Source: Acidimicrobiaceae bacterium (GTDB lineage: Bacteria > Actinomycetota > Acidimicrobiia > Acidimicrobiales > MedAcidi-G1). From it: a DNA stretch of 64,000 bases. Under the pieces are notes generated by a model, which had not been told where the DNA came from, did not search any database, and worked only from the letters and a program-made list of their open reading frames with translations. This document shows positions 26,602 to 54,455 of the stretch, in pieces. Position 1 is the stretch's first letter; the number at the start of each line of letters is the position of its first letter. The position numbers and the translations under genes are program-made. The DNA lies in the NCBI GenBank assembly GCA_002687745.1, contig NZBE01000010.1, forward strand, positions 100,666 to 164,665, in the 5' to 3' direction.

Positions 26602-27474
26602 GTGGGTCGCCGCTACGACACCCTCTCGTTTCTTTCCGACTACGGAACCGACGACGAGTTCGTCGGTGTGGTCCACTCCGTGGTCCGGAGCATCGCACCA
26701 CACCTGACGACCGTCGACGTCACACACGGCATCCCTCCACATGACGTGCGTGCTGGTGGTCTGACGCTGGCCCGAAGCGCCCAGTACCTGTGTCCGGGTG
26801 TCGTCCTCGCCGTCGTGGATCCGGGCGTGGCAACCTCCCGGCGTGCCGTCGCCATCGAGGTAGGAAACGGCGAGTCCGTGCTGGTCGGACCCGACAACGG
26901 TCTCCTGGCACCGGCTGTGGCACTGGTTGGCGGCGCTACGCGGGCGGTTTCCCTGACCAGAACCGACTACCACCTGCCCGCTCCCGGCCCCACCTTTGCC
27001 GGCCGTGACCTGTTTGCACCGGTTGCAGCACACCTCGCCAACGGTGTGGACCTCGGCGAGTTCGGTGAGGCCGTCGACCCGTCGACACTCCTGCCAGGCG
27101 TCATGCCAGTTTCCGCAGCCGACGACGATGGCCTCCATGCGGAGGTCCTCTGGGTGGACCGGTTCGGCAACATCCAGCTGAACGTGGGCCCCGGCGAACT
27201 TGGCGACATCGTGGGCCAGGTAGGCGACCGGTGCCAGGTCAGGAGTTCCGGATCGTCAAGGCCGGTCGTGAGGGTGGTCGCCTTCGACGAGGTACCCGCA
27301 GGCGGCCTCGGGCTTCTCGTTGATTCCTACGGGTTGGCGACCCTCGTGGTCGACCGGGCGTCGGCAGCTGCCGACCTGGGCGTGTCGGCCGGCGATGCCC
27401 TCGTTCTGGCGCCAACCGTTGACGGCTCCGGGTCCGTCACCAGGGTCGAGCTCGGAAGGAGCGAGACCGTCTGA
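26602..27474 (+). CDS. SAM hydroxide adenosyltransferase (DUF62) family protein
   Basis: LSFLSDYGTDDEFVGVVHSV, VDPGVATSRRAVAI, GPDNGLLAP, WVDRFGNIQLNV. Confidence 0.9.
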   Translation: MGRRYDTLSFLSDYGTDDEFVGVVHSVVRSIAPHLTTVDVTHGIPPHDVRAGGLTLARSAQYLCPGVVLAVVDPGVATSRRAVAIEVGNGESVLVGPDNGLLAPAVALVGGATRAVSLTRTDYHLPAPGPTFAGRDLFAPVAAHLANGVDLGEFGEAVDPSTLLPGVMPVSAADDDGLHAEVLWVDRFGNIQLNVGPGELGDIVGQVGDRCQVRSSGSSRPVVRVVAFDEVPAGGLGLLVDSYGLATLVVDRASAAADLGVSAGDALVLAPTVDGSGSVTRVELGRSETV

Positions 27475-28369: not shown

Positions 28370-29095
28370 ATGGCAGCCCGTGGCAGGACACCCGACCAGG
28401 ACCTCCCGACAGCTGAGATGGGCGTTGTCCAACCCGAGGGATCCTCCTCGCCTATTCCCGAAGCGACCCTTGCGCGCCTGCCCGTCTACATGCGGAGCCT
28501 GGTCGAGATGGCCGACGAGGGCATCGGCACCGCGTCATCGCGCCAGGTAGCCGAGCTGGCGGGGGTGAACGCAGCAAAGGTACGCAAGGACCTCTCCCAC
28601 CTGGGGGCCCACGGCAAGCGTGGGGTCGGCTACGACGTCGACCGCCTGCTTGCCGAGATAGGCGGGGCGCTCGGCGGTTCGCTGACACCGGTGGTCATCG
28701 TCGGCGCCGGGAACCTGGGCAGGGCCCTCAGCAGGTACGACGGCTTCATGGCGGGGGGGTTCCCGGTGGCCGCCATCGTCGACTCCGACCGCTCACTCAA
28801 GGGCCGAGAGATCTCAGGTGTGCCAATCACGCACGTCGACCAGATGGACGAGGTGGTGTGCGCCACGGGGTGTCGACTGGGGATTGTCGCCACCCCGGCC
28901 CATGCCGCCCAGGAGGCCGTCGACCGCCTCGTGGCAGCCGGCCTGAGGTCGATACTCAACTTCGCACCGGCCGTGGTCTCGGTTCCTCCCGAGGTTCAGT
29001 TGCGTAAGGTCGACCTGGCAACAGAACTGCAGATCCTGGGCTATTACGAGCACGTTCGAACATCGAGCGGGGATTCTGAGCAGGCTGCCGGATGA
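28370..29095 (+). CDS. rex: Redox-sensing transcriptional repressor Rex
   Basis: TASSRQVAELAGVNAAKVRKDLSHLGAHGKRGVGYDV, VVIVGAGNLGRALSRY. Confidence 0.95.
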   Translation: MAARGRTPDQDLPTAEMGVVQPEGSSSPIPEATLARLPVYMRSLVEMADEGIGTASSRQVAELAGVNAAKVRKDLSHLGAHGKRGVGYDVDRLLAEIGGALGGSLTPVVIVGAGNLGRALSRYDGFMAGGFPVAAIVDSDRSLKGREISGVPITHVDQMDEVVCATGCRLGIVATPAHAAQEAVDRLVAAGLRSILNFAPAVVSVPPEVQLRKVDLATELQILGYYEHVRTSSGDSEQAAG

Positions 29096-38297: not shown

Positions 38298-38555
38298 CGT
38301 GGCCTCCGGGGCGACGTGGTGTTCGGTTCAGCGGTGTGCGGTTGGCCCGACACCGACCTCTGGTCGGACAGGTGCAGGCTAGCTGGCACTGTAGGTCGTC
38401 CGGCACCGATCCGGACAAGCCAGATGCTGCGTGCCCGGGTAGTCGCAACGTGCTCGGCGTGGTAGACACAGCGTCTGTGCAGGGGTGCCACGACGGGATC
38501 AACGGAGGGTCGCGGAGTCCCTGGACCACCCACTAGCATGGGGCGGGCACAGCGC

Positions 38556-38573
38556 TTGTGCATCGCTTCACTA
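38556..38573. promoter_or_regulatory. Candidate Rex operator upstream of bc/nuo operon
   Basis: TTGTGCA-TCGC-TTCACTA versus Rex consensus TTGTGAA-N4-TTCACAA (12 of 14 specified positions). Confidence 0.6.
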
Positions 38574-38624
38574 AGTCGCTGTAACCACCCAGTCGCCGAG
38601 ACCTGCCGAGGAGGAGCCTGAACG

Positions 38625-39080
38625 ATGGTCGCGTTCGTTGTATCCGTCATCGTGCTGGGTCTCATGGTCGCCGGCGCCGGTGCATACCGTGACCGCTGCC
38701 CCGCCGACAAGGACTTCACCTGGGGCGAGGCCATGCTCTTCGCCACCTACGTTTTCATGATCATGTTCTGGGTCTACGGCGTTGTCCCACACCAGTGGCT
38801 GACCTGGGCGGACAGCGAACTCAACTGGCGCCCTGACCGCTTCCTCGTCGGACCGTCGCTGCCGTGGACCGGCGAACAGGGCATCGTCGAGTGGGTCCTT
38901 CCCTTCACCATGACCTACGAGGTGATCCGCGACATCGTCGCTGTGATCATCTACCTCGTCGGCATCGGCGGCAACGCCGTGCTCTGGAAGAAGTGGCAGA
39001 ACCGGGGCGCAGAGGTTGCCGAACCCACACCAACCTCCGAATACGGCCGGCCGCTGGTACGCGAGGGGGCCGGAACATGA
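38625..39080 (+). CDS. Hypothetical membrane subunit of bc-complex locus
   Basis: 2-3 TM protein, SD GAGGAG; first gene of the co-directional operon. Confidence 0.7.
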   Translation: MVAFVVSVIVLGLMVAGAGAYRDRCPADKDFTWGEAMLFATYVFMIMFWVYGVVPHQWLTWADSELNWRPDRFLVGPSLPWTGEQGIVEWVLPFTMTYEVIRDIVAVIIYLVGIGGNAVLWKKWQNRGAEVAEPTPTSEYGRPLVREGAGT

Positions 39081-39493
39081 GCGTCATCGACGCCAACCCG
39101 GCACATCCGATGTTTGTCGACGACTACACACTTCGCGAGGTCGATGCCGCCTGGATGGCCACGGCGGTGAAGCTCAAGCAGTTCATCCACATTGACCAGT
39201 CCGAGTGCATCATGTGCGAGGGCTGCGTCGACATCTGCCCCTGGAAGTGCATCCACATGGTCAGCCCCGACGTCATCGTCGAGGCGGTCGGAACCGGAAT
39301 GCCCGGCGACGACCCCAGCGACAACGTCATCTTCACCATCGACGACGACGTCTGCACCCGCTGCGCCCTGTGTGTCGATCGCTGTCCCACCGGTGTCATC
39401 ATCCTCGGAAAGATGAGCGACCCACCGGCAGACGGCGACGCACACCAACGCGCCAACAGCCATGGCTATGGCTACGGCATGCGCCTCGGCTGA
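39077..39493 (+). CDS. Dicluster 4Fe-4S ferredoxin-like protein
   Basis: CIMCEGCVDICP and CTRCALCVDRCP. Confidence 0.92.
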   Translation: MSVIDANPAHPMFVDDYTLREVDAAWMATAVKLKQFIHIDQSECIMCEGCVDICPWKCIHMVSPDVIVEAVGTGMPGDDPSDNVIFTIDDDVCTRCALCVDRCPTGVIILGKMSDPPADGDAHQRANSHGYGYGMRLG

Positions 39494-39558
39494 TCGGCGG
39501 TAGGCGGGAACTATGCGCAACATGAACACCCACACAGGTTCACAGGAGAACGACGACA

Positions 39559-40326
39559 GTGGTCGATAGCAACGGCAGCAAGCCGACCGGACAGGCGCTG
39601 GCAGAGCGCGTTCAGGGATCACAGGCCTGGGGATCCATCTTCAGGCCCGGTTCCATCTTCCGGAAGGGCTACAGCGACAGTCCCCGGAACCGGTCATACG
39701 TGATCATGAACAGCGTCCTCTACCACCTGCACCCTGTGAAGGTGAAGAGGCACGCCGTAAAGGTGAGCTACACGCTCTGCCTGGGCGGGTTGAGCTTCTT
39801 CCTGTTCATCCATCTCACGGTCACCGGCATCTTCCTGATGTTCTTCTACCGGCCCACAGCGGCCCCGGCGTGGAATGACATCCTGACACTTCAGACGTCG
39901 GTTGGCTTCGGCCTCCTCGTGCGCAACATGCACCGGTGGGCTGCCCACCTCATGGTCCTCTCAGTGTTCCTCCACATGGCCCGGGTCTTCTACCACGGCG
40001 CCTACAAGCCGCCCCGCGAATTCAACTGGGTCATCGGTGTGATGCTGCTGCAGCTCACCCTGCTTCTCTCCTTCACCGGGTACCTGCTGCCCTGGGACCA
40101 GCTGGCCCTCTGGGCGGTAACCGTCGGTACCAACATGATGGGCTTCACGCCGGTGTTCGGACCACAGGTCAGGTTCGTCCTCCTCGGAGGGGTCGAGATC
40201 GGGACCGACACCCTGCTGCGCTGGTACGTACTGCACGTGTTGATGCTGCCCTTTGTGACGGTGATCTTCATGGCAATCCACTTCTGGCGCGTCCGCAAGG
40301 ACGGCGGAATCTCCGGACCGCTCTAG
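39559..40326 (+). CDS. Cytochrome b N-terminal (b6-type) subunit
   Basis: RNMHRWAAHLMVLSVFLHMARVFYHGAYKPPREFNWVIGV; GYLLPWDQLALWAVTVG; His ligands in TM segments. Confidence 0.93.
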   Translation: MVDSNGSKPTGQALAERVQGSQAWGSIFRPGSIFRKGYSDSPRNRSYVIMNSVLYHLHPVKVKRHAVKVSYTLCLGGLSFFLFIHLTVTGIFLMFFYRPTAAPAWNDILTLQTSVGFGLLVRNMHRWAAHLMVLSVFLHMARVFYHGAYKPPREFNWVIGVMLLQLTLLLSFTGYLLPWDQLALWAVTVGTNMMGFTPVFGPQVRFVLLGGVEIGTDTLLRWYVLHVLMLPFVTVIFMAIHFWRVRKDGGISGPL

Positions 40327-40341
40327 GCCAGGGACGCGACG

Positions 40342-41088
40342 ATGACTGAAATCCCCGAACACCTCCGCAAGCGTGCCGAAGAGGCCCGCCAGAAGGCCGC
40401 AGGCGCGACCGGGGCCGACAAGCCGGCCGACGCTGCCCCATCCGAGGCGACAGCATCAGGCGGCGAGGCGGCCGAGGGCCGGATTCCGGTCCACCTGCTG
40501 GACCGCAGCAGGGCAGCAGCCAACCAACCGGCTCCAGACGCCGACCCGGCTCCGGCCGGTGGCGGAGCACCCGCGCCGAGCAGCGGCCCCGACGGGCACA
40601 ACCAGCGCCTCCTCACCGTCGTCAAGTCCGGCTCGATCCAGGACGCCAAGTCGGTTCCCCAGGACAAGGTGCACGTCTGGCCCCACCTGCTGGTGGCTGA
40701 GTTCCTGGCAGCCCTGGCCGTCACCCTGTTCCTGCTGGCGTTCTCGATCTTCGTCAACGCACCCCTGCTCGACCTGGCGAACTTCAACCAGACCCCCAAC
40801 CCGTCAAAGGCACCCTGGTACTTCCTCGGACTCCAGGAGATGCTCACCATGTTCCACCCGATGGTGGCGGGCGTGACCATCCCCGGTATCGGCCTCATCC
40901 TCCTGGCGATGGCGCCCTACATCGACAAGAACCCCTCCAAGGCACCCGAGGACCGCAAGTTCGCCATCTCGCTCATGACCGTCCACCTAATGTTCTGGGC
41001 CGTCCTCGTGATGATCGGCTCGTTCTTCCGCGGCCCCGGCTTCAACTTCATCTTCCCATGGAACAGCGGCCTGTTCTTCGAACTGTGA
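40342..41088 (+). CDS. Cytochrome b C-terminal / subunit IV-like protein
   Basis: NPSKAPWYFLGLQEMLTMFHPMVAGVTIPG; extended N-terminus MTEIPEHLRKRAEEARQKA. Confidence 0.9.
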   Translation: MTEIPEHLRKRAEEARQKAAGATGADKPADAAPSEATASGGEAAEGRIPVHLLDRSRAAANQPAPDADPAPAGGGAPAPSSGPDGHNQRLLTVVKSGSIQDAKSVPQDKVHVWPHLLVAEFLAALAVTLFLLAFSIFVNAPLLDLANFNQTPNPSKAPWYFLGLQEMLTMFHPMVAGVTIPGIGLILLAMAPYIDKNPSKAPEDRKFAISLMTVHLMFWAVLVMIGSFFRGPGFNFIFPWNSGLFFEL

Positions 41089-41141
41089 TGTCCATGCCCA
41101 CCCACCTCGCGGCCTCAGGCCGGAACCCCGGGAGCTGATCC

Positions 41142-42017
41142 GTGGTAGTCGTGATCCCAATCGTCCTGCTCGTGGTGCTCGCAGGGGTGCTGCTTGTAGG
41201 AACATCCCGGCGACGTGAACAAAGGGCGGCCGGCCTGTCCCGCGAGGCCCGTCGCAGCGACAAGGCCAGCCTCGCCCTTTCGGCAGGTGACGGCGACACT
41301 GCCCCAACTGGCCGCCAGGTGGAACACGAAGCCATCGCAACCAGGAAGGTGGTAGACGCACCGGTCGTCGAGTCGGCACCCGCCGAGCCGTTCGTGGCAC
41401 CCGATCCGCTGGCCCTGGGCGTGTCCCGCCGGCAGTTCTTCAATCGCAGCATCGTGGGCATGATGGGCCTCGGCCTCTCCGGCTTTGGCGGCGCATGCAT
41501 AGCCTTCCTCTGGCCACAGGGCGTGAGCGGCTTCGGCTCCAAGATCAAGGTCGGCAACATGATCGAGCTTCTGGCCGAGATCAAGGACAAGAACGGCTTC
41601 GTCTACATGCCCGAAGGCCGAATGTGGATCACCGCGTATCCGAACGGCGCCGTGGAAAAAGCCCGGACGGCCTACTCCTCACCTGAGTTGACCGGCATGG
41701 CGGCCGGGGTCGAGAGCGGATTCGAGAGCGGGGTCGTCGCCCTGTACCAGAAGTGCCCCCACCTGGGCTGTCGGGTACCCGAGTGCGTGTCGTCGCAGTG
41801 GTTCGAGTGCCCCTGCCACGGTTCTCAGTTCAACCAGGTCGGAGAAAAGCGCGGAGGACCCGCACCGAGGGGCATGGACCGGTTCGCCATGACCGTGGCC
41901 GACGGCGTGCTCACGGTTGACACCGGCACGATCGTTCAGGGACCCCCCATCGGAACCAACACCACCGGCCAGGAGGCCGAGGGTCCGCACTGCATAGGCG
42001 CCGCCGACGGCCACTAG
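41142..42017 (+). CDS. Rieske 2Fe-2S protein of bc complex
   Basis: KCPHLGCRVPEC...FECPCHGSQFNQVGEKRGGPAPRGMDRF; SRRQFFNRS signal-like segment. Confidence 0.95.
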   Translation: MVVVIPIVLLVVLAGVLLVGTSRRREQRAAGLSREARRSDKASLALSAGDGDTAPTGRQVEHEAIATRKVVDAPVVESAPAEPFVAPDPLALGVSRRQFFNRSIVGMMGLGLSGFGGACIAFLWPQGVSGFGSKIKVGNMIELLAEIKDKNGFVYMPEGRMWITAYPNGAVEKARTAYSSPELTGMAAGVESGFESGVVALYQKCPHLGCRVPECVSSQWFECPCHGSQFNQVGEKRGGPAPRGMDRFAMTVADGVLTVDTGTIVQGPPIGTNTTGQEAEGPHCIGAADGH

Positions 42018-42051
42018 GCCCGCCCCGTCAGGAGACCAACGAGACAACCCG

Positions 42052-43242
42052 ATGATCCTCGCAGCAAGCACACAACGCACAGTCGGCCTGGTGCTGGCCG
42101 TTCTCGTGATGGTCGGGCTCGTCGTATACATGCTCTTCAACTTCCGTATCGGAAAGCGCGAGGTCGGCTCCGAGATCGACCTGGCTGCCAACCGGACACC
42201 CCATGTCGACGACCTCGAGCTGGAAACCAGGGTGCTCGATCGGAGTCTCGCCTGGTCGCTCGTCACGCTCGCAGCCATCTCCCTGGTACTGCCCATGTAC
42301 TGGCTGATGGAACCGGCCCGACAGGAGAACGCAGCCATCGACTGGGTCGGCCGCTTCGAGGTCAAGGGTGCCAGAATCTTCGAGGACGGTTGCGCCAACT
42401 GCCACGGACCAGGCGGTGTCGGTGGGGTGGCGGCCTTCACCATCGCGGACCCTGATGGCCAGTTCGTGGCCCAGGTCGAGTGGAAGGCGCCTGCACTAAC
42501 AACGGCCCTCTCCCGCTTCAGCGAGGCAGAGGTAACCGATATCCTCAACTACGGCCGTCCGGGCACCCCGATGCCGGCCTGGGGCCTGTCCGGCGGTGGC
42601 CCGCTGACCACCCAACAGGTCGAACAGCTTGTCGTGTACCTGCGGTCCATCCAGCTAGACCAGGACGCTGCTACGGCCGAGATCAGCTCAGGTATCCGAG
42701 CCGGGGTAGGGGCCGTGGTAACGGCAGCCGATCCGTCCCTAACCGATCGCGATGACGTCGACGCAGCAATCGATACATGGCTCGAAGGTGCAACCGATCC
42801 GGCCAGCGACGACTACCTGTTGTACGGTGAACTTCTCTTCAACAACGCTTCGGCACAGGACGCCAACAACTGTGCCCGCTGCCATACCCCCGGCTTCTCC
42901 TTCGGGGCGACCAGCGAGGCCGCCACAGCCGACCTGCTCGAGGCGTGGCCGCGGCTGGCCGAGTCCGGGATACTCACCGGTTGGCAGCCTGGAGCAGGCC
43001 ACGTGGGCCCTGACCTTGCCGGTGTCGAGGCCCACTTCTCAACGAGCCAGCGGCAGTCCGAGTTCATCCGCGCCGGGTCCGAGGTGGGCATCGGCTTCGG
43101 CAACGCACGGACCGGCTCGGGCGGCATGCCCGGATACGGCGGACGGGTCGATGATCTCGACGTGATCGGAACCGTCGAGCGCAGCCAGCTGCTCACGCCT
43201 GAACAGATTGACGCCATCGTGGCCTACGAGAGGAGCCTCTGA
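42052..43242 (+). CDS. Diheme c-type cytochrome, membrane-anchored
   Basis: CANCHGPGGVGG and CARCHTPGFSFG; two N-terminal TM segments. Confidence 0.9.
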   Translation: MILAASTQRTVGLVLAVLVMVGLVVYMLFNFRIGKREVGSEIDLAANRTPHVDDLELETRVLDRSLAWSLVTLAAISLVLPMYWLMEPARQENAAIDWVGRFEVKGARIFEDGCANCHGPGGVGGVAAFTIADPDGQFVAQVEWKAPALTTALSRFSEAEVTDILNYGRPGTPMPAWGLSGGGPLTTQQVEQLVVYLRSIQLDQDAATAEISSGIRAGVGAVVTAADPSLTDRDDVDAAIDTWLEGATDPASDDYLLYGELLFNNASAQDANNCARCHTPGFSFGATSEAATADLLEAWPRLAESGILTGWQPGAGHVGPDLAGVEAHFSTSQRQSEFIRAGSEVGIGFGNARTGSGGMPGYGGRVDDLDVIGTVERSQLLTPEQIDAIVAYERSL

Positions 43243-44252
43243 TGAGTGCATTCGTCATGCTCGCAGGCCTCGCCTACAACCCGCACATCGCCGGGATCCT
43301 CGTCGTAGCAACGGGCGTAGTTGTTCTCATTGGATCCGTGTGGCTGCTGCTTGCCACCAACTCTGGCATCAGGGTCGGAACGCTGCTGGCCGTAACCTCC
43401 CTCATGGGGTGGATGGTGATCATGGGGTCCACCTGGTGGATGTACGGCAAGGGCTGGCAGGGGAGCAGCGCTTCATGGATCACCGTCGACATCAACGTCG
43501 GTGACCTGGCGGCCAGCGGCCTTCCAGAAGCAAGGCAACTTCCCAACCCCGGCGACCTGCCGTCCGGCTACGAAATGGTCGTGTCGTCAGGTGATGCAGT
43601 GGCAATGGCCGAATACGGCACCCTCCCGACATCCGACGAGTACCCCGACCTTCCCGCTGACGAACTCCAGATGCTTCGCGCAGACCGGCAGGTACGCAAC
43701 GAGACGGTCACCAGATCTGAACTGGCAGCGGTCGCGCCAGAGGTGACGGCCGCTGCGGGCCTCGGCAACCTCGGTGGCTGGCGCCTGCTGGCGACGACCG
43801 AGGCCGGCGACGCGCAGGCCCAGGCAGTCGCCGATGTCCTGTCACACAGTGATCTCGGGTTCGGCTCCACCGGAGACTTCAAGCTGCTGGATGCGTTCAC
43901 CATGGGCGGTAAGCCGACGCTGCCCAAGGACCCGGCCCGGTGGGACCGCATAAGCCTCTGGGTCACCAACTCCGCCCGGATAACCAACCCGGTGAAGTAC
44001 ACGGTCGTCCAGCTGCAGTCGGTTGTCGACCAGGCGACCATCCCCGGTGAGGCACCGCCTCGGCCAATTGCAGACGCCGATGAGCCCGTCGTCTCGGTGA
44101 TCATGGTCCGGGACCTCGGCAGCGTCAGGCTCCGGCCTGCACTCGTCACCATCGGATCGCTACTGGTCTTCCTCGCGCTCTGCCACTGGCTCCATGTCCG
44201 TGACAAGGAGGTCATGGCACGGCGCAGGGAGTTCGAAGCGGCAGGAGCCTGA
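43242..44252 (+). CDS. Uncharacterised membrane protein between bc and nuo genes
   Basis: Two N-terminal TMs and one C-terminal TM flanking ~200-aa soluble domain; TGATG start overlap. Confidence 0.75.
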   Translation: MSAFVMLAGLAYNPHIAGILVVATGVVVLIGSVWLLLATNSGIRVGTLLAVTSLMGWMVIMGSTWWMYGKGWQGSSASWITVDINVGDLAASGLPEARQLPNPGDLPSGYEMVVSSGDAVAMAEYGTLPTSDEYPDLPADELQMLRADRQVRNETVTRSELAAVAPEVTAAAGLGNLGGWRLLATTEAGDAQAQAVADVLSHSDLGFGSTGDFKLLDAFTMGGKPTLPKDPARWDRISLWVTNSARITNPVKYTVVQLQSVVDQATIPGEAPPRPIADADEPVVSVIMVRDLGSVRLRPALVTIGSLLVFLALCHWLHVRDKEVMARRREFEAAGA

Positions 44253-44255
44253 TCC

Positions 44256-44300
44256 GTGGTAGTCGCCTGCAGAGACGCCTGCCGGCGCCCGGGAGGTTGA
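44256..44300 (+). CDS. Candidate 14-codon leader peptide (VVVACRDACRRPGG) coupled to nuoA
   Basis: AGGAG SD, GTG start, stop TGA ends 1 nt before nuoA GTG; nuoA SD lies inside it. Confidence 0.4.
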   Translation: MVVACRDACRRPGG

Positions 44301-44301
44301 C

Positions 44302-44778
44302 GTGCTCGGCCAGTACCTGCCCCTTGTGTTCCTGTTTGCGCTGGCATTTCTCTTTGCTGCGCTGAGCTTCTTCGCTTCACGGCTGCTAGCCCCACGCAGC
44401 CCCAACGACAAGAAGGAAGCCCCGTACGAGTGCGGGATCATTCCCGGGCGCGAAGCACCCGAGCGCTTCCCGGTGCGCTTCTTTCTGGTGGCGATGATCT
44501 TCATCGTCTTCGACATCGAGATCATCTTCTTCTACCCGTGGGCGATAGCACACGGCGAGATCGGACTGTTCGGCCTCGTCGCCGTGCTCATCTTCTCCCT
44601 GGCCGTGTTCGAGTCCTTCGTCTACCTGATCGGCAACGGCGCCCTCGAGTGGGGGCCGCTCAGCCGTGAGGCACCGGGTGGAGGCGTCGTGTCGGCAGGG
44701 CGCACCTCGTCGACAACGGTCTCGCGGGCAGGCATCCGCCAGGTGGGCCTCGACGGCCGACCCGGGGGGAATGCCTGA
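44302..44778 (+). CDS. nuoA: NADH-quinone oxidoreductase subunit A (cluster 1)
   Basis: [41 protein letters not shown]. Confidence 0.95.
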
Positions 44779-45386
44779 TGCGACGCCTTCCGATCCTGGG
44801 CGACGTGTCCCGGGTCTCCGACGACGGCCTCGAGGGCCTCGAACACAACTTCGTGACAGCGCGCATCGAGGACCTCGTGAAATGGTCGCGGGCACGCAGC
44901 TGCTGGCCGGCCACGTTCGGGCTGGCATGTTGTGCGATCGAGATGATGGCCACCGGCGCCGCCCACTACGACCTGGCCCGCTACGGAATGGAGGTCTTCC
45001 GTGCCTCTCCCCGACAGGCCGACCTGATGATTGTGGCCGGGCGGGTTTCACAGAAGATGGCGCCGATACTGCGGCAGATCTACGACCAGATGATGGAACC
45101 CAAGTGGGTCATCTCCATGGGCGTGTGTGCATCGAGTGGTGGCATGTTCAACAACTACGCCATCGTCCAGGGCGTCGACCAGGTGGTTCCCGTTGACGTG
45201 TACGCCCCGGGCTGCCCGCCGGGACCCGAGACCCTCATGCATGCCATCCTCACCCTTCACGAGAGCATCCGTACCGGTGAGCTGACACGCCGCCGAGAGG
45301 CCAATGACGGTGGTGCGGCGATCCACGTTGAGGCCCCGCTCCCAGAGGACACAACGGAACAACCGGTCCAACTGGGTTCCCGATGA
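44778..45386 (+). CDS. nuoB: NADH-quinone oxidoreductase subunit B (cluster 1)
   Basis: [11 protein letters not shown]...[15 protein letters not shown]...[14 protein letters not shown]. Confidence 0.96.
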
Positions 45387-45853
45387 CCACGGTTCCCGAG
45401 ACGTCGTCGTTCGGCCAGCGGGTGCTGCACCCGTTGCCCGACCAGCTGTACGCAACGGTCAGTGACCTGCGCGACGAGGGCTTCCTGACAGCAGTCGACG
45501 TGACCGCCGTCGACTACATGGCACATCCGGGCCGAACCGATCTGCCAGCCGATGTCAGCCCCGAACGCTTCGAGGTCGTCGTTTCCCTTCACGCACACCA
45601 GAGCCATGAGCGTGTGCGACTGCGGATCCAGGTCCCCGTCGACGATCCGGTCGTCCCCTCCCTCTTCGACCTGTTCCCTGGAACCGAGGCCATGGAACGG
45701 GAGGTCTTCGACCTCTTCGGCATCACGTTCGACGGCCACCCGGACATGACCCGGATCCTGCTTCCCGAGGAATGGGAGGGCCATCCGCTCCGAAAGGACG
45801 TCGACACCGGCCGGATACCCGTCCAGTTCAGGGAAGCCCCGGTGCAGCGGTGA
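45383..45853 (+). CDS. nuoC: NADH-quinone oxidoreductase subunit C (cluster 1)
   Basis: [48 protein letters not shown]. Confidence 0.95.
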
Positions 45854-47154
45854 GCAGCGGAGCGCCGGAAGGCACCCTCTCCGACCTCGGCAGCGCCGAG
45901 CGGGTTCACCGCCGCGACGGCAGTGCGGTCCTGCGGGTAGGCGAGGGCGAGGCATTCGAACTGGCTGGCGATCCCGACAACCCCGACGACGACGAGCGCA
46001 TGATCTTGAACATGGGGCCGTCGCACCCCTCCACCCACGGCGTCCTGCGCCTGATGCTCGAGATGGAGGGCGAGACCGTGCTGCGGACCAAGCCGGTCAT
46101 CGGCTACCTGCACACGGGCATGGAGAAGACAGGCGAGAACCTGAGCTACCTCCAGGGACCCACGAACGTCACCAGGATGGACTACGCCGCTCCACTGTTC
46201 TCCGAGCTGGCGTTCTCCCTGGCGACCGAGAAACTGCTCGGGATCGAGGTCCCTCCACGGGCCACCTGGATCCGGATGCTCATGTGCGAGCTGAACCGGG
46301 TGGCCTCACATCTGCTGTTCCAGGCGACCAACGGCATGGACCTGGGTGCCGTCTCAATGATGATCTACGGCTGGCGCGAACGCGAAGAGGTACTCCGGTT
46401 CTTCGAGAAGGTCACCGGCCTCCGGATGAACCACAACTACATCCGACCCGGTGGCGTGGCGGCCGACCTCCCCGACGGATGGCAGGACGACGTTCGTCGG
46501 CTGCTGGACCTGATCCCACCGAGGCTCGACGAGTACGACACCCTGCTGACCGGCCAACCCATCTTCAGGGAGCGTCTCCAGGGAGTCGGCGTCATGACAC
46601 CAGCCGAGGCCCTTGCACTCTCGGCCACCGGCCCGATCCTGCGCTCCACCGGATACGCCTGGGACCTGCGACGCGACGAGCCGTACCTGGCCTACGACCA
46701 GGTCGACTTCGACGTCCTCGTGGGCACCTACGGCGACTCCTTCGACCGGTTCGCCATACGCCTGAACGAGACACGTGAATCGCTGCGCATCGTCGAGCAG
46801 GTCCTCGACCAGATGCCCGGCGGCGACTACCGCACCCAGGACCAGAAGGTCACACCACCACCGAGGGCACGCATCGACGACTCCATGGAGGCCCTGATCC
46901 ACCACTTCAAGATCTTCACCGAGGGATTCCACGTGCCCGAGGGCGAGGTCTACGTGGCTGTCGAGTCCCCCCGCGGCGAGCTGGGCTGCTACCTGGTGTC
47001 CGATGGTGGTCCCAACCCATACCGGATGCACATCAGGGGTCCCAGCTTTGTCAACCTCCAGACGCTCCCGCACCTCATGGAGGGTGGCCTCATCGCCGAC
47101 GCCGTGGCCGTGATCTCATCGGTGGACCCGATCATGGGCGAGGTGGACCGCTGA
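45850..47154 (+). CDS. nuoD: NADH-quinone oxidoreductase subunit D (cluster 1)
   Basis: MGPSHPSTHGVLRLMLEMEGE, IGYLHTGMEKTGE, GPSFVNLQTLPHLMEGGLIADAVAVISSVDPIMGEVDR. Confidence 0.96.
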   Translation: MSSGAPEGTLSDLGSAERVHRRDGSAVLRVGEGEAFELAGDPDNPDDDERMILNMGPSHPSTHGVLRLMLEMEGETVLRTKPVIGYLHTGMEKTGENLSYLQGPTNVTRMDYAAPLFSELAFSLATEKLLGIEVPPRATWIRMLMCELNRVASHLLFQATNGMDLGAVSMMIYGWREREEVLRFFEKVTGLRMNHNYIRPGGVAADLPDGWQDDVRRLLDLIPPRLDEYDTLLTGQPIFRERLQGVGVMTPAEALALSATGPILRSTGYAWDLRRDEPYLAYDQVDFDVLVGTYGDSFDRFAIRLNETRESLRIVEQVLDQMPGGDYRTQDQKVTPPPRARIDDSMEALIHHFKIFTEGFHVPEGEVYVAVESPRGELGCYLVSDGGPNPYRMHIRGPSFVNLQTLPHLMEGGLIADAVAVISSVDPIMGEVDR

Positions 47155-47807
47155 TGGGCTACTTCAGCGAGGCCAACGAGGTCCTGGCCGCCGAGATCAT
47201 CGACAGGTATCCGAGGCCCAGGTCTGCCGTCATACCGCTGCTTCACCTCGCTCAGGAACAGGAGGGCTGGGTAACCCGCGAGGCAATGCTCCAGATAGCG
47301 GACCTCACAGGAGTGACCGCCGCGGAAGTCCTCGGAACGGGCAGCTTCTATGAGATGTTCAAGTTCCATCCTGTGGGGCGGTACATGGTCAACGTCTGCA
47401 CCAACATCTCATGCCAGCTCCTGGGTGGAGAGGAACTCCTGGATCACGTCGAGTCCACCCTCGGTGTCAGTGCCGGCGATACGACCGAGGACGGGATGTT
47501 CACCGTCGAGGACGTCGAGTGCGTGGCCGCATGCACCGAGGCCCCGTGCTTCACGGTCAACTACAGGTACTTCCACAGGGCAACCCCGGAGGTGTTCGAC
47601 CAGGTGGTGTCCGACCTGCGTGACGGCCACAGCCCTGTCGAAAGGGGTAGCGCCGGTGATTCCGGCGACATGCCCGAACACGGCACTCTCGGACGGGTGC
47701 GCCAGGAGATACCCGTCGACAAGATGGCAGGCGTGGTCGCACCCGAGAAGGCAGGGGAGCAACCGGTTTGGCTGCCCGGCCCAGCGGAGGTCGACGCCGA
47801 TGGCTGA
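47154..47807 (+). CDS. nuoE: NADH-quinone oxidoreductase subunit E (cluster 1)
   Basis: VNVCTNISCQLLGG...VEDVECVAACTEAPCFTVN. Confidence 0.95.
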   Translation: MGYFSEANEVLAAEIIDRYPRPRSAVIPLLHLAQEQEGWVTREAMLQIADLTGVTAAEVLGTGSFYEMFKFHPVGRYMVNVCTNISCQLLGGEELLDHVESTLGVSAGDTTEDGMFTVEDVECVAACTEAPCFTVNYRYFHRATPEVFDQVVSDLRDGHSPVERGSAGDSGDMPEHGTLGRVRQEIPVDKMAGVVAPEKAGEQPVWLPGPAEVDADG

Positions 47808-49218
47808 CACCTGCCAGACCTCTGACGGCTACGTGCCTCACGCCCCGGGCTACGTGGCTAACGGTGGACCGACCCTGCTGACCAGCAGGTTCCTGTTTGA
47901 GGACTCCCACACCCTTGAACGTTCCATGCACACCGGCGGCTATGCGGGCCTGCGCACAGCGCTCTCACGTGTCCCGGCAGAGGTCCACGACGAGGTGAGG
48001 CAGGCAACCCTGCTCGGGCGTGGAGGCGCCGGCTTCCCGGCGGGTGTCAAGTGGGGGTTCTGCCCCGACGGGGTGTGGCCCCGCTACCTCGTGGTGAACG
48101 GTGACGAGAGTGAGCCGGGGACCTACAAGGACCGCCTCCTCATGGAGAGGGATCCACACCAGTTGATAGAGGGCTGCCTCATCGCCTGCTACGCCCTCGG
48201 GCTGTCGCAGTGCTTCCTCTACGTACGCGGCGAGATGGCGCTCGCCCAGGAACGGATCGCCGTTGCACTCAACGAGGCCTATGAAGCAGACCTGGTCGGA
48301 GCGAACGTGCTCGGATCTGACTTCTCGGTCGACATCGTCCTGCACTGGGGTGCCGGCGCCTACATAGTCGGCGAGGAGACGGCCCTCATCGAGAGCCTCG
48401 AGGGCAACCGCGGCATGCCGAGGCTGAAGCCCCCCTACTTTCCTGCGGCCATCGGCCTCTACGGCCAGCCCACGATCGTGAACAACGTCGAGACCCTCTC
48501 CAACCTGCCCTGGATCATGGAGAACGGTGCCGACGCCTACAAGGGGTACGGCTCAGAGGCATCTCCCGGTACCCGGCTGTTCGCGGTCTCAGGCCACGTC
48601 TCGCGGCCCGGGGTCTATGAGGTGGAACAGGGTGTCACCACATTCCGCGACCTCTTCTACGGAGACGACTACTGCCGCGGCATTCGTGACGGCAACGAGT
48701 TGAAGGCGTTCATCCCCGGAGGCGGCTCGGCCCCGTGGTTCTTCGGTGAACACCTGGACCTGCCACTCGAGGCCCGCACCGTGTCCGAGGCGGGTTCCAT
48801 GCTCGGCTCCGGTGCCATCGTGGTGATGGACGAAACGACCGATGCCGTGAAGGCATGCCTGCGGCTGGTCCGCTTCTACGCAAACGAGTCCTGTGGCAAG
48901 TGCGCGCCGTGCCGTGAGGGAACCAGCTGGGAGCAGAAGATCCTCCAGCGCATCCACGACGGTGAGGGTCGACCATCTGACATCGACCTGCTCCTGAGCG
49001 TCGGCAACCACATCAGCCCCGGCCCCTATCCCGTGGCGTCCTTTGACGCCGAGGGTTTCGAGGCGGTGCCGTTTCCTCCGAGCCAGACCACCATCTGCCC
49101 GCTCGGGCCGTCGTCGGTGGCACCCATCACATCGGCGATTCGTCGGTTCCGCGAGGAGTTCGAGGCCCTGATCACCCGCAGCGACTCAATCCCCGTCGTG
49201 TCGGAGGCGGGCGCATGA
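47800..49218 (+). CDS. nuoF: NADH-quinone oxidoreductase subunit F (cluster 1)
   Basis: LLGRGGAGFPAGVKWGF, GAYIVGEETALIESLEG, ESCGKCAPCREGTSWEQKIL. Confidence 0.96.
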   Translation: MADTCQTSDGYVPHAPGYVANGGPTLLTSRFLFEDSHTLERSMHTGGYAGLRTALSRVPAEVHDEVRQATLLGRGGAGFPAGVKWGFCPDGVWPRYLVVNGDESEPGTYKDRLLMERDPHQLIEGCLIACYALGLSQCFLYVRGEMALAQERIAVALNEAYEADLVGANVLGSDFSVDIVLHWGAGAYIVGEETALIESLEGNRGMPRLKPPYFPAAIGLYGQPTIVNNVETLSNLPWIMENGADAYKGYGSEASPGTRLFAVSGHVSRPGVYEVEQGVTTFRDLFYGDDYCRGIRDGNELKAFIPGGGSAPWFFGEHLDLPLEARTVSEAGSMLGSGAIVVMDETTDAVKACLRLVRFYANESCGKCAPCREGTSWEQKILQRIHDGEGRPSDIDLLLSVGNHISPGPYPVASFDAEGFEAVPFPPSQTTICPLGPSSVAPITSAIRRFREEFEALITRSDSIPVVSEAGA

Positions 49219-51686
49219 GCGACGAGACCGTGGACGACACGGTGGAGATAAGCGTCAACGGCACGCAGGTGGCAGCCCTGCCCGGTGAGCTGCTGATCGA
49301 CGCATGTGAACGGACCGGCACCTACATCCCGCGGTTCTGCCACCACTCCAGGCTTGAACCGGTCGGAATGTGTCGAATGTGCCTCGTCGAGGTCGACACC
49401 GGCAGGGGACCTGCACTGCAGCCCTCGTGCATGCTCACGTGCACACCGGGCATGCAGGTCGATACCGAGTCCGAACGTACCCGCAGCGCCCAGAACGGGG
49501 TCCTCGAGCTCCTGCTCGTCAACCACCCACTGGACTGCCCGGTGTGCGACAAGGGCGGCGAGTGCCCTCTCCAGGACCAGACCATGACCCACGGCCCCGG
49601 TGAGAGCAGGTACATCGAGGAGAAGCGCCACTTCGTCAAGCCGATCCCCGTAAACACCAACGTCCTGCTCGACAGGGAGCGGTGCGTGCTGTGTGACCGC
49701 TGCACCCGCTTTGCCGACCAGGTAGCGGGCGATCGCCTCATCCACTTCCTGGATCGTGGCTCCCGAGCCCAGGTGAATACCTTCCCCGGCGAGCCCTTCA
49801 GCTCCTACTTCAGCGGCAATACCGTCCAGATCTGTCCTGTTGGAGCGCTGACCGCTGCCCCGTACCGGTTCAGGGCCCGACCCTGGGACCTCGAAGAGGT
49901 CGGGTCGACGAGCGTGGTCGACAGCGTCGGAAGCCGAATCTCGGTGCACTCGTCGCGCGGTCGTGTGCTGCGCTTCATGGGAGCCGACTCGGATGCGGTC
50001 AACTGGGGTTGGCTGTCTGACAGGGAACGGTTCGTGTTCGAGGCCTACGACAGCTCAGACCGCCTCGATGGACCGATGCTCCGTGGTGATGATCAGGGCA
50101 GCGGGGAATCCGGAGGACCAGGGCTGGTGCCGGCCAACTGGGCCGATGCCATCGAAGCAGCGGCCGAGGCACTTTCCGGTACCGGTCCTGACCGGACAGC
50201 CGTGATTGGAGGCGCCCGTCTCACCAACGAGTCCCAGTACGCCTGGACCAAGCTTGCCAAGGGCGTGCTCGGCACCGACAACGTCGACGCCCAGCTGGGA
50301 GACGGGCTTCCAGCCGAGACCATCCTGGGCCTCCCACGAGCCACCATCGACCGGGCATGCACGCCCGGAGGCACCATCGTGCTCCTGGGTCCTGACCCGA
50401 AGGAGGAGCTGGGCAGCCTCTACCTGCGCCTACGCCATGCGGTCGTCCACGACGGGGCGACCCTCATCGAGCTGACCCCCCAGCCGACGGGCCTCGCCGA
50501 CATCGCTACGCACTCCATCCGGGTCCGCCCCGGCGAGGCCGCGGGCGTGGTGCGGGCCATGTTCGAGGGCGGGTCAGGCAACCTGGGTTCCGTCGGAGAC
50601 GCAGTCTCCGCGGGAGGGCCGGTGACGGTTCTGCTGGGCCGGACCTCACTTGCCGAAGATGCCGGCCTTGTCGCCGACGCCGCCGTGGGCATCCTCGAAA
50701 ACGTCGACGGCGTCAGGTTCCTGTCGCTGCTACGCCGCGGAAACGTGCACGGAGCGCTCGACATGGGTATGTCGCCGGGCCTGCTTCCGGGTCGCACGAC
50801 CCTCGAAACCGGAGTCAACCGGTTTGAGGACTGCTGGGCCGGCACCCCCACCTCGACGGGGCTCGACTGTGTGGCCGCTCTCGAGGCCGCAGCAGCCGGT
50901 GACATGGACGTGCTGGTACTGCTTGGGGCCGATGTCCTCGTAGACCTTCCCGACCACGACCTTGCGCGCAGGGCACTCGAGGCTGTTGGAACTGTGGTCG
51001 CCGTCGACCTCTTCATTACACAGACGGTGGAGCGCGCCGACATCGTGCTGGCTGCTGCCGCACCCACCGAGGTGGATGGTTCCTTCACGAACCTCGAGGG
51101 CCGGATAAGTGCCGTGAGGCGTGGAGCCTCCGCACCCGGCACCTCCCGGCCCGACTGGATGATCGCCGCCGAGTTGGCCGAGCGGCTCGGAACCGATCTG
51201 GGCCTGACCTCCGTCGGTGGAATCTGGGCTGAACTGGCGGCGGTCTCGCCTGTTCACGCCGACGTCAGCCCCGAGGCGATCCTGTCCTCGGGCGTCGAGG
51301 GCATTCTGGTGGCCGGAGAGATGCCCCTAGTGAGGCCACAGGAGACCACCGTGCCGGCACCCGGCCGGTCCACCCTGCGCCTCGTCGTCACCCGTTCGAT
51401 GTTCGACAACGGCGTCCTGAACGGACACAGCAACTCTCTCGCCGGCCTCGCACCCGGCACCCACATCGGCGTAGAGCCATCTGACCTGAAGCGCCTGGGG
51501 CTCGCAGACGGGTCAACCGTCGAGATATCCGGACCCCGCGGGACGGTCACAGCCGAGGTTGTCTCTTCTCCCCGGGTGACCCCCGGCACGGCGCATGTCC
51601 TGTTCAACCAGGACGGGCTGGATGCCGGAGAGCTCATCGACGCCTCGCTGGCGGTCACCGACGTGAACCTGGGGAGGCCCCGATGA
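49215..51686 (+). CDS. nuoG: NADH-quinone oxidoreductase subunit G (cluster 1)
   Basis: FCHHSRLEPVGMCRMCLVEVD, DCPVCDKGGECPLQD, RCVLCDRCTRF, C-terminal molybdopterin-oxidoreductase-like domain. Confidence 0.95.
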   Translation: MSDETVDDTVEISVNGTQVAALPGELLIDACERTGTYIPRFCHHSRLEPVGMCRMCLVEVDTGRGPALQPSCMLTCTPGMQVDTESERTRSAQNGVLELLLVNHPLDCPVCDKGGECPLQDQTMTHGPGESRYIEEKRHFVKPIPVNTNVLLDRERCVLCDRCTRFADQVAGDRLIHFLDRGSRAQVNTFPGEPFSSYFSGNTVQICPVGALTAAPYRFRARPWDLEEVGSTSVVDSVGSRISVHSSRGRVLRFMGADSDAVNWGWLSDRERFVFEAYDSSDRLDGPMLRGDDQGSGESGGPGLVPANWADAIEAAAEALSGTGPDRTAVIGGARLTNESQYAWTKLAKGVLGTDNVDAQLGDGLPAETILGLPRATIDRACTPGGTIVLLGPDPKEELGSLYLRLRHAVVHDGATLIELTPQPTGLADIATHSIRVRPGEAAGVVRAMFEGGSGNLGSVGDAVSAGGPVTVLLGRTSLAEDAGLVADAAVGILENVDGVRFLSLLRRGNVHGALDMGMSPGLLPGRTTLETGVNRFEDCWAGTPTSTGLDCVAALEAAAAGDMDVLVLLGADVLVDLPDHDLARRALEAVGTVVAVDLFITQTVERADIVLAAAAPTEVDGSFTNLEGRISAVRRGASAPGTSRPDWMIAAELAERLGTDLGLTSVGGIWAELAAVSPVHADVSPEAILSSGVEGILVAGEMPLVRPQETTVPAPGRSTLRLVVTRSMFDNGVLNGHSNSLAGLAPGTHIGVEPSDLKRLGLADGSTVEISGPRGTVTAEVVSSPRVTPGTAHVLFNQDGLDAGELIDASLAVTDVNLGRPR

Positions 51687-52921
51687 TCCTGGCCGCCGAC
51701 CCGCTCCTCGTAGACGGAATCGACCTGACAGTGGCACTGATCGTGTTGTTGAAGGCCGGTGTGGCCTTTGCGATGCTGCTGGTGTCGGTGATGCTCGTAA
51801 TCTGGTTCGAGCGAAAGCTCATCAGCGACATGCAGAACCGGATCGGTCCGGCAATGGCGGGTCCATGGGGGATCCTCCAGACCCTTGCCGACGGGATCAA
51901 GCTGTTCTTCAAAGAGGACCTCCTGCCGACCAGGGCCGACCGTGTCGTGTTCAGGCTGGCCCCGTACCTCTCGATCATCCCCGCCTTCGTGGCGTTCGCG
52001 ATCATTCCGGTCGGAGGTGACTTCACCAACGGCGGCGATGGCACGGTGTCGATGTTCGGCCGATCCACGCTCCTCCAGGTGGCCGATCCGCCGGTCGGTG
52101 TCCTCTTCTTCCTGGCCCTGTCGTCGATAGCGGTCTACGGGGTGATGCTGGCCGGCTGGTCGTTAGGTTCCAAGTACCCGCTTCTGGGCTCTGTAAGGGC
52201 ATCAGCCCAGATGATCAGCTACGAGGCGGCGCTGGGCCTCGCCATAGCCACGGTGTTCCTGACCTCCGGCTCCCTCTCGACCCACGAGATCGTGGTCGGC
52301 CAGTCAGCCACGACCTGGAACGTGCTCGCCACAGGGATAGTCCCGTTCGGGATCTTCCTGATCGCAGGCACCGCCGAGCTGAACCGTCCACCGTTTGACC
52401 TGGTCGAGGCGGAACAGGAACTGGTCGGTGGATTCCACACCGAGTACAGCTCAATCCGCTTCGCCCTGTTCTTCCTGTCCGAGTTCATGAACATGATCAC
52501 CATGTCGGCAATCGCCGTGACCCTCTTCCTCGGCGGCCCCGCAGGACCGATCGTGACCCAGCGGCTGGCCTGGGTGTGGCCACTGCTCTGGTTCTTCCTG
52601 AAGGTGATGGCGTTCCTGTTCACCTTCGTGTGGCTACGGGCGACCCTTCCCCGCTTCAGGTACGACCAGCTCATGGACCTGGGCTGGAAGGTCCTGATCC
52701 CGGCGGCCCTGGGGTGGTTCCTCCTGATCGCCACCCTCGACACAGCGAGGGATCTCGGCTGGCCCACGCTGCCGGTCGTCGTGGTCGGTGTCCTGGCCCT
52801 GTGGGGCGGGGCTGCCCTTCTCTCGGGTGCCGTACGCAAGGCCCGTGCCGAGAGGCTCGAAGAGGCCGAGGCCCACCGGGACGAGCGTGCCGACAGCACG
52901 GTCGGACACGGGGAGGCCTGA
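51683..52921 (+). CDS. nuoH: NADH-quinone oxidoreductase subunit H (cluster 1)
   Basis: WFERKLISDMQNRIGP, LADGIKLFFKEDLLP, AELNRPPFDLVEAEQELVGGFHTEYSS. Confidence 0.96.
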   Translation: MILAADPLLVDGIDLTVALIVLLKAGVAFAMLLVSVMLVIWFERKLISDMQNRIGPAMAGPWGILQTLADGIKLFFKEDLLPTRADRVVFRLAPYLSIIPAFVAFAIIPVGGDFTNGGDGTVSMFGRSTLLQVADPPVGVLFFLALSSIAVYGVMLAGWSLGSKYPLLGSVRASAQMISYEAALGLAIATVFLTSGSLSTHEIVVGQSATTWNVLATGIVPFGIFLIAGTAELNRPPFDLVEAEQELVGGFHTEYSSIRFALFFLSEFMNMITMSAIAVTLFLGGPAGPIVTQRLAWVWPLLWFFLKVMAFLFTFVWLRATLPRFRYDQLMDLGWKVLIPAALGWFLLIATLDTARDLGWPTLPVVVVGVLALWGGAALLSGAVRKARAERLEEAEAHRDERADSTVGHGEA

Positions 52922-53535
52922 TGGGATACCTGAGAGGTTTCGCCGTCACGTTCGCCAAGATGTTCGAGAAGCGCGTCACCGTGCCCTACCCGGACGCCAA
53001 GCGCGCCAAGCCGGAACGCCTCCACGGTCGACACGTCCTCAACCGGTACGAGGACGGCATGGAGAAGTGCATCGGCTGCGAGCTTTGTGCCGGCGTGTGC
53101 CCTGCCAACTGCATCTACGTGAGGGGTGCGGACAATCCTGTGGACGATCCGGTCTCACCGGGTGAGCGCTACGGATACGTCTACGAGATCAACTACCTGC
53201 GGTGTATCCACTGTGACCTGTGCGTGGAGGCCTGTCCGACACAGGCGATCACCGAAACCAAATTGTTCGAGTTCTCGTTCACGAACCGTGCCGACGCCAT
53301 CTATACGAAGGACGAACTGGTCGTCGATGCCGACACCGGCAGGCCCCGGCACCTTCCATGGGAGGACTGGCGCGAGGGTGAGGACCTGGCAACCTCGGGA
53401 TGGATGCGGGCGACCTCACCCAGCGGCGACGTTACCCAGGTGGGGCGGGTGGCATGGTCCGGTGAGCTCGGATACGGCGTTCGCAGCCCCGAGGTCGGCC
53501 AGTCGGCCGACCATGAACCGGGGGAGGGCACCTGA
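52921..53535 (+). CDS. nuoI: NADH-quinone oxidoreductase subunit I (cluster 1)
   Basis: CIGCELCAGVCPANCIYV and CIHCDLCVEACPTQAI. Confidence 0.95.
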   Translation: MGYLRGFAVTFAKMFEKRVTVPYPDAKRAKPERLHGRHVLNRYEDGMEKCIGCELCAGVCPANCIYVRGADNPVDDPVSPGERYGYVYEINYLRCIHCDLCVEACPTQAITETKLFEFSFTNRADAIYTKDELVVDADTGRPRHLPWEDWREGEDLATSGWMRATSPSGDVTQVGRVAWSGELGYGVRSPEVGQSADHEPGEGT

Positions 53536-54146
53536 TGGAGGTAGCCGTCTTCACCCTCGGAGCGGTGATCGTGTTGTCGGGAGGCCTTGGCGTGCTGCTG
53601 GCCCGAAACCCTGTTCACGCGGCGTTGTTCCTCGTGCAGACCCTGTTCGGCGTGGCAGTGCTGTTCGTGCTCCTGGAGGCCACCTTCCTGGCAGCCGTCC
53701 AGGTGATGGTCTACGCGGGTGCGATCGTGATCCTGTTCCTGTTCGTAATCATGCTCCTGGGCGTCGACCGTGCCGACGACCTGGGCATCGAGCCGATCGC
53801 AGGCCAGAGGCCGATGGCGGCAGTGGTCGGCGTATCTCTCGCCGGGCTCCTGGCGACGGTGCTTCTCGTGGCCGTCGACGGCCTCACCGGTGCCCGTGGA
53901 GGAACCCCGCTCGGTGATGCCGGCGACAACACGCGCCGCCTCGGAGAGGCCCTGTTCACCGACATGGTCTTCGCTGTGGAGCTGACGGCGATACTGCTCA
54001 CCGTCGCCGTGGTCGGAGCCGTGGCACTGGCCCGACGCCTCAGTGGCCCGATGCAGCCGTTGCCGGTGGTGGCGATTGCGGAGTCCGACGACCAGCCGAC
54101 CGAGGCTGACGATGAGCCGGCCGGGGCGACAGGGGAAGATTCCTGA
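53535..54146 (+). CDS. nuoJ: NADH-quinone oxidoreductase subunit J (cluster 1)
   Basis: NPVHAALFLVQTLFGVAVLFVLLEATFLAAVQVMVYAGAIVILFLFVIMLL. Confidence 0.95.
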   Translation: MEVAVFTLGAVIVLSGGLGVLLARNPVHAALFLVQTLFGVAVLFVLLEATFLAAVQVMVYAGAIVILFLFVIMLLGVDRADDLGIEPIAGQRPMAAVVGVSLAGLLATVLLVAVDGLTGARGGTPLGDAGDNTRRLGEALFTDMVFAVELTAILLTVAVVGAVALARRLSGPMQPLPVVAIAESDDQPTEADDEPAGATGEDS

Positions 54147-54451
54147 TGGTCGTAACCACGGGGTGGTACCTGGCGCTCGGAGCGGCACTGTTCTCGATGG
54201 GAGCGGTCGGCCTGCTGGTCCGACGCAACCCACTCGTGATGTTCATGTGCGTCGAGTTGATGCTCAACGCGGTGAACCTCACGTTCGTGAGCCTGGGCGC
54301 CGAGCTGGCTGACCTGGGCGGCCAACTGTCCGTGTTCTTCGTGCTCGTGGTGGCGGCCGCCGAGGTGGTTGTGGGCCTGGCCGTGATCGTCGCAATCATG
54401 CGGCGTCGCCCAGGTGCAACCGTCGACGACCTCTCGGTGCTGGGGGGTTAG
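54146..54451 (+). CDS. nuoK: NADH-quinone oxidoreductase subunit K (cluster 1)
   Basis: RRNPLVMFMCVELMLNAVNLTFV; VVAAAEVVVGLAVIVAI. Confidence 0.95.
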   Translation: MVVTTGWYLALGAALFSMGAVGLLVRRNPLVMFMCVELMLNAVNLTFVSLGAELADLGGQLSVFFVLVVAAAEVVVGLAVIVAIMRRRPGATVDDLSVLGG

Positions 54452-54455
54452 GGCC

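Follow-up and report, generated by a model that had tools for sequence, protein, structure and literature searches.

Does the palindrome that stands before a conserved respiratory gene cluster in this Acidimicrobiaceae bacterium act as an operator, and, if so, which regulator binds it? The window (the whole 64,000-nucleotide stretch of DNA that was analyzed) also carries a gene for Rex, a repressor that senses NADH, and the original prediction, made from the letters of this stretch, read the palindrome as a Rex site. Its 18-bp core, TTGTGCATCGCTTCACTA, matches the Rex consensus TTGTGAA-N4-TTCACAA at 12 of 14 positions and differs from it at bases 6 and 17; both the exact sequence and the match count agree with those first reported. 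No better match is present in the window, where the runner-up reaches 11/14. The palindrome lies before the ATG at 38625, as described, but the spacing is 51 bp, the 52 bp originally given being a coordinate difference. Twelve of 14 is inside the range of proven Rex operators, since those of Streptomyces avermitilis deviate at one or two or more positions, the same C included. Rex from that species has been footprinted on TTGTGCACGCGTTCACAA (rex-hem), TTGTGACCTGCTTCACAT (nuoA1) and TTGTGATACGGTTCACGA (atpI) (PMC5355995), and because TTGTGCACGCGTTCACAA has the same TTGTGCA half-site, the C in the left half-site is a proven variant.

Gene matches bear out the description of the downstream genes as a bc-complex/Nuo operon (Table 1), which comprises, in order, a 151-amino-acid protein, a ferredoxin-like protein, cytochrome b, a petD-like subunit, a Rieske protein, cytochrome c, a protein without family match, and the nuo genes from nuoA onwards. 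This order is kept from the 151-amino-acid gene as far as nuoI or nuoJ in all 16 genomes compared (eight from the same family, eight from other families of the order). The true start of the second, ferredoxin-like gene probably lies after 39080. Two members of the operon (38625-39080 and 43242-44252) have no family match and are syntenic with the bc and nuo genes across the order; they possibly encode extra subunits of the bc-type complex. The cytochrome b pair (39559-41088) scores best against the ExtP/ExtQ models, not actinobacterial QcrB, with ExtP above its cut-off; ExtP and ExtQ are b-type cytochromes of a selenite/tellurite reduction operon. A terminator scan of positions 38600 to 56000 returned seven hits against 6.0 expected, which is chance level and supports no internal terminator, and a single transcript carrying bc and nuo would be consistent with the conserved gene order.

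Table 1. Features of the predicted Rex-controlled locus and of a second site at the ATP synthase operon (window coordinates unless another locus is given).
Feature	Position	Strand	Basis or remark
Decayed rex autoregulatory operator, CTGCGAAGGATCACCCAA	28335..28352	.	9/14; same spacing before rex as in relatives
rex, NADH-sensing repressor	28370..29095	+	NCBIfam NF003992, E 1.2e-83, above cut-off
TAGCAT, likely -10 of operon promoter	38534..38539	+	inferred from TAnnnT conservation in 33/33 family members
Rex operator (predicted), core TTGTGCATCGCTTCACTA	38556..38573	+	12/14; 33/33 family conservation; retention tracks rex
AGT, fixed 3' extension of core, family motif TTGTGCANNNYTTCACNAAGT	38574..38576	+	columns 18-20 invariant, 30/30 aligned
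GGAGGAG ribosome-binding site	38610..38616	+	sequence; 8 nt before ATG 38625
First operon gene, 151-aa membrane-like protein	38625..39080	+	no Pfam or NCBIfam match
ORF with second gene, 4Fe-4S ferredoxin-like	38864..39493	+	weak 4Fe-4S matches, NuoI/RnfB-like
Cytochrome b (b6-like) and petD-like C-terminal subunit	39559..41088	+	profile matches
Rieske iron-sulfur protein	41142..42017	+	
Cytochrome c	42052..43242	+	
nuoA-nuoJ (complex I)	44302..54146	+	A-D and F-J by match; nuoE by position and synteny
TTGTGAATCTAATCACCA, second Rex-like site, upstream of atpI/ATP synthase operon	L001 1501-1518 (G000:C2:94709-94726)		

Could such a palindrome have arisen by chance? From base composition (66% GC), matches of at least 12/14 are expected about 0.0001 times in the intergenic region that holds it, and about 0.7 times per 1.85-Mb assembly. 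A scan of its own genome for TTGTG-N8-CACAA with up to two mismatches found 307 occurrences against 343 for a reversed control, that is, no enrichment. Given that expectation and the unenriched loose palindrome, the single-genome case for TTGTGCATCGCTTCACTA is suggestive, not decisive, and the reality of the site is decided by conservation. Upstream DNA of relatives was retrieved via the first operon gene, and same-family genomes with readable upstream sequence were counted. In all 33 of these, TTGTGCA-NNN-YTTCAC-N-AAGT is kept at the operon, a T replacing the left half-site C in a single genome, and the site (motif TTGTGCANNNYTTCACNAAGT) lies 34-68 bp from the start codon. Flanking columns mostly carry less than 1 bit, i.e. 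they have diverged, while columns 18-20 of the 3' extension are invariant in 30/30 aligned sequences. Because the 3' AAGT is invariant in the family, selection may act on more than the palindromic contacts with protein. Comparable matches at random positions, which would have spoken against the site, are rare: 41 family genomes together hold 39 copies of TTGTGNANNNNTTCACNA, about one per genome, and 36 of the 39 are the operon's own form of the site, against eight for the reversed control.

Conservation does not by itself tell which regulator uses the site, since Rex and Crp sites share their spacing and both proteins are encoded in the genome. The Crp site, TGTGA-N6-TCACA, has the same length and half-site spacing. 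This genome and nearly all others of the family encode a full-length Crp whose recognition helix (SRERVNKA) is of the Crp type, and respiratory genes are among those that Crp/GlxR proteins control in actinobacteria. A draw of genomes across the order separates the two proteins. Among genomes that have the operon, a site scoring at least 11/14 is present in 37 of the 39 with rex and in none of the nine without it, where scores of 8-9/14 equal the level of shuffled sequence (Fisher P ~3e-8). The nine rex-less genomes are spread over four families (f27, f36, f52 and f59); an absent rex in metagenome-assembled or draft genomes can reflect an assembly gap, and here the absence is consistent within the four families. 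As genomes within one family are not independent, a count by family is the fairer test, and it gives 23/23 families with rex against 0/4 without (P 6e-5). Together with an earlier, smaller draw, the counts are 49/55 with rex and 1/10 without. Exceptions are two genomes with rex that lack a good site (G103 and G126), four from the earlier draw whose sites score 9-10 (G049, G055, G060 and G042), and a lone contrary case, G037, with a site and no detected rex in an assembly that is 84% complete and in ~510 contigs.

The dependence on rex does not extend to Crp. Seven genomes (G045, G105, G096, G069, G153, G118 and G106) have both site and rex without a full-length match to the Crp helix-turn-helix, and three f27 genomes have Crp and lack both rex and the site. 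The inner A/T pair, unconstrained in Crp sites, is invariant here. Control of this operon by a Crp-family regulator through the palindrome is thus very unlikely in our estimate, and the palindrome was rejected as a member of the Crp sites, defined by TGTGA-N6-TCACA and co-occurrence with Crp, because it tracks rex and not Crp. The original reading of the site as a Rex operator is what the joint retention and loss support, and repeated operator loss in rex-less families amounts to a clean natural experiment that names the regulator from sequence alone. Two further palindromes were observed at this operon. Rex-less f27 genomes (L294, L309, L316) have one that is a base shorter, TTGTGAACCACTCACGA, ~150 bp before the operon, with TCGCGA in one copy, which may be either a remnant or a binding site for a different regulator; and the operon of G060 (L227) is preceded by TTGTGAG-CC-TTCACGA, a Rex-like arrangement with a spacer shorter by two bases.

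The rex gene, reported at the outset to lie in the window, was confirmed by its profile match (Table 1), and its product aligns with solved Rex structures over the DNA-binding and nucleotide-binding domains, including the RKDLS recognition region and the GxGNLG nucleotide motif. In several relatives, rex has its own site directly upstream (e.g. TTGTGCACTCCTTCACAT, ATGTGAACGGCTTCACGA), TTGTGCA half included, adjoining a -10-like element; the same motif at rex promoters is a further point against Crp. This autoregulatory operator scores 12/14 in several relatives of the same genus, 10-11/14 in sister genomes, an intermediate stage of decay, and 9/14 here, so that rex may have little or no autoregulation left in this species; no Rex operator was found upstream of rex in genera g2 and g3. 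The ATP synthase operon of the genus likewise has a conserved Rex-like site upstream (TTGTGAATCTAATCACCA or close variants) in 7/7 genomes, and the atpI-upstream site recurs in several other genera, though g3 and part of g2 yielded none. A (R)-S-adenosyl-L-methionine hydrolase-like gene lies near rex (26602-27474), and an actinobacterial metagenome-assembled genome (L162) has a Rex motif 274 bp before an apparent gene of this kind.

The family motif, which was built without any information on Rex, was also used to scan one genome per species. It matched before rex in Granulicoccus, Nocardia and another actinobacterium, and at the promoters of nadA, ldh, gapA, qoxA and pncA, all confirmed by HMM, as well as pckA; among matches without an HMM-confirmed Rex-type target, some are surely due to chance. 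Most of the matched genes (rex, nadA, ldh, gapA, qoxA, pncA, pckA) are known kinds of Rex target. In several Paenibacillus-type genomes (L106, L122, L125, L188, L201, L208) the motif is directly upstream of nadA, a placement that suggests control of NAD synthesis by Rex. The ~0.7 matches of such quality expected per genome would agree with a palindrome that arose by chance, or with a conserved element of the promoter or leader that has no link to Rex; the 33/33 retention against diverged flanks, the loss with rex in four families and the occurrence of the motif before classic Rex targets of other phyla make such an explanation scarcely credible.

How would Rex act from this position? The original prediction placed a possible -35 element, TTGTGC, within the site. 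TTGTGC shares three of six positions (the TTG) with TTGACA; however, none of the 33 family sequences has TAnnnT 15-20 nt downstream of it, at -35/-10 spacing, and all 33 have a TAnnnT that ends 12-16 nt upstream of the operator. Elsewhere in the order, moreover, most families have a TAnnnT-like hexamer (TAGAAT, TACAAT, TACGAT) that abuts or overlaps the operator. A Rex site overlapping a -35 is accordingly most improbable, and this part of the prediction is abandoned. A sigma-70 consensus scan of the intergenic region found no promoter, and the -10 call (Table 1) therefore rests on conservation. Given the conserved -10-like TAnnnT, the operator probably lies just past the transcription start, and we infer a start near 38546, which puts the operator between about +6 and +28. 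A site downstream of the likely -10 would occupy a repressor position, again at variance with Crp.

Taken together, the palindrome is very probably the operator of the Rex encoded ~10 kb away, which would repress the bc/complex I operon and be released by NADH. At a low NADH/NAD+ ratio, a Rex dimer would sit on the site and block the promoter; by analogy with the Rex family, a rise in NADH would release it and allow expression. From past the start, Rex would act by blocking either promoter clearance or early elongation, not by covering a -35, while in the other families, with the operator abutting or overlapping the -10, it would block polymerase binding. Both placements fit repression. The type of switch, a Rex operator, is already known, and greater interest attaches to the target, bc and complex I genes joined in one operon throughout an order. 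One Rex operator may gate both complex I and the quinol:cytochrome c oxidoreductase in Acidimicrobiales; with the Rex sites of relatives also at the ATP synthase operon and at rex, one NADH sensor would then set most of the respiratory chain. The operator of the marine family studied here may have shifted from the -10 into the first transcribed stretch, and the step that is repressed may have changed with it, from polymerase binding to escape. We regard these two readings, taken jointly, as evenly poised between right and wrong. The findings extend the Rex regulon to a large, mostly uncultivated actinobacterial order, and suggest that in this order the NADH/NAD+ ratio jointly switches complex I and the bc-type complex. 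A literature search on Acidimicrobi* with Rex found no paper on the topic.

The closest known counterparts are the Rex operators of Streptomyces, described at rex-hem, nuoA-N, atpIBEFHAGDC and cydABCD (PMC5355995), with which the present sites share the 18-bp palindrome, the TTGTGCA half-site and the targets rex, nuo and ATP synthase. Placement downstream of the start also has a precedent at Streptomyces cydA1, where S. avermitilis Rex protects -3 to +25 (PMC5355995). Unlike in Streptomyces, the cytochrome b, Rieske and cytochrome c genes precede nuo in the cluster, a single operator fronts bc and complex I, and the left half-site C and the 3' AAGT are almost fixed in the family. Operators of Bacillales Rex (TTGTGAAWWWWTTCACAA; targets of the ldh, qox and nadA type) are related in that the family motif matches such targets in the species-wide scan; their targets are fermentative, oxidase or NAD genes, whereas the target here is the core respiratory chain. 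Actinobacterial Crp/GlxR sites have the same half-site spacing and respiratory targets, but in this order the presence of the site follows rex.
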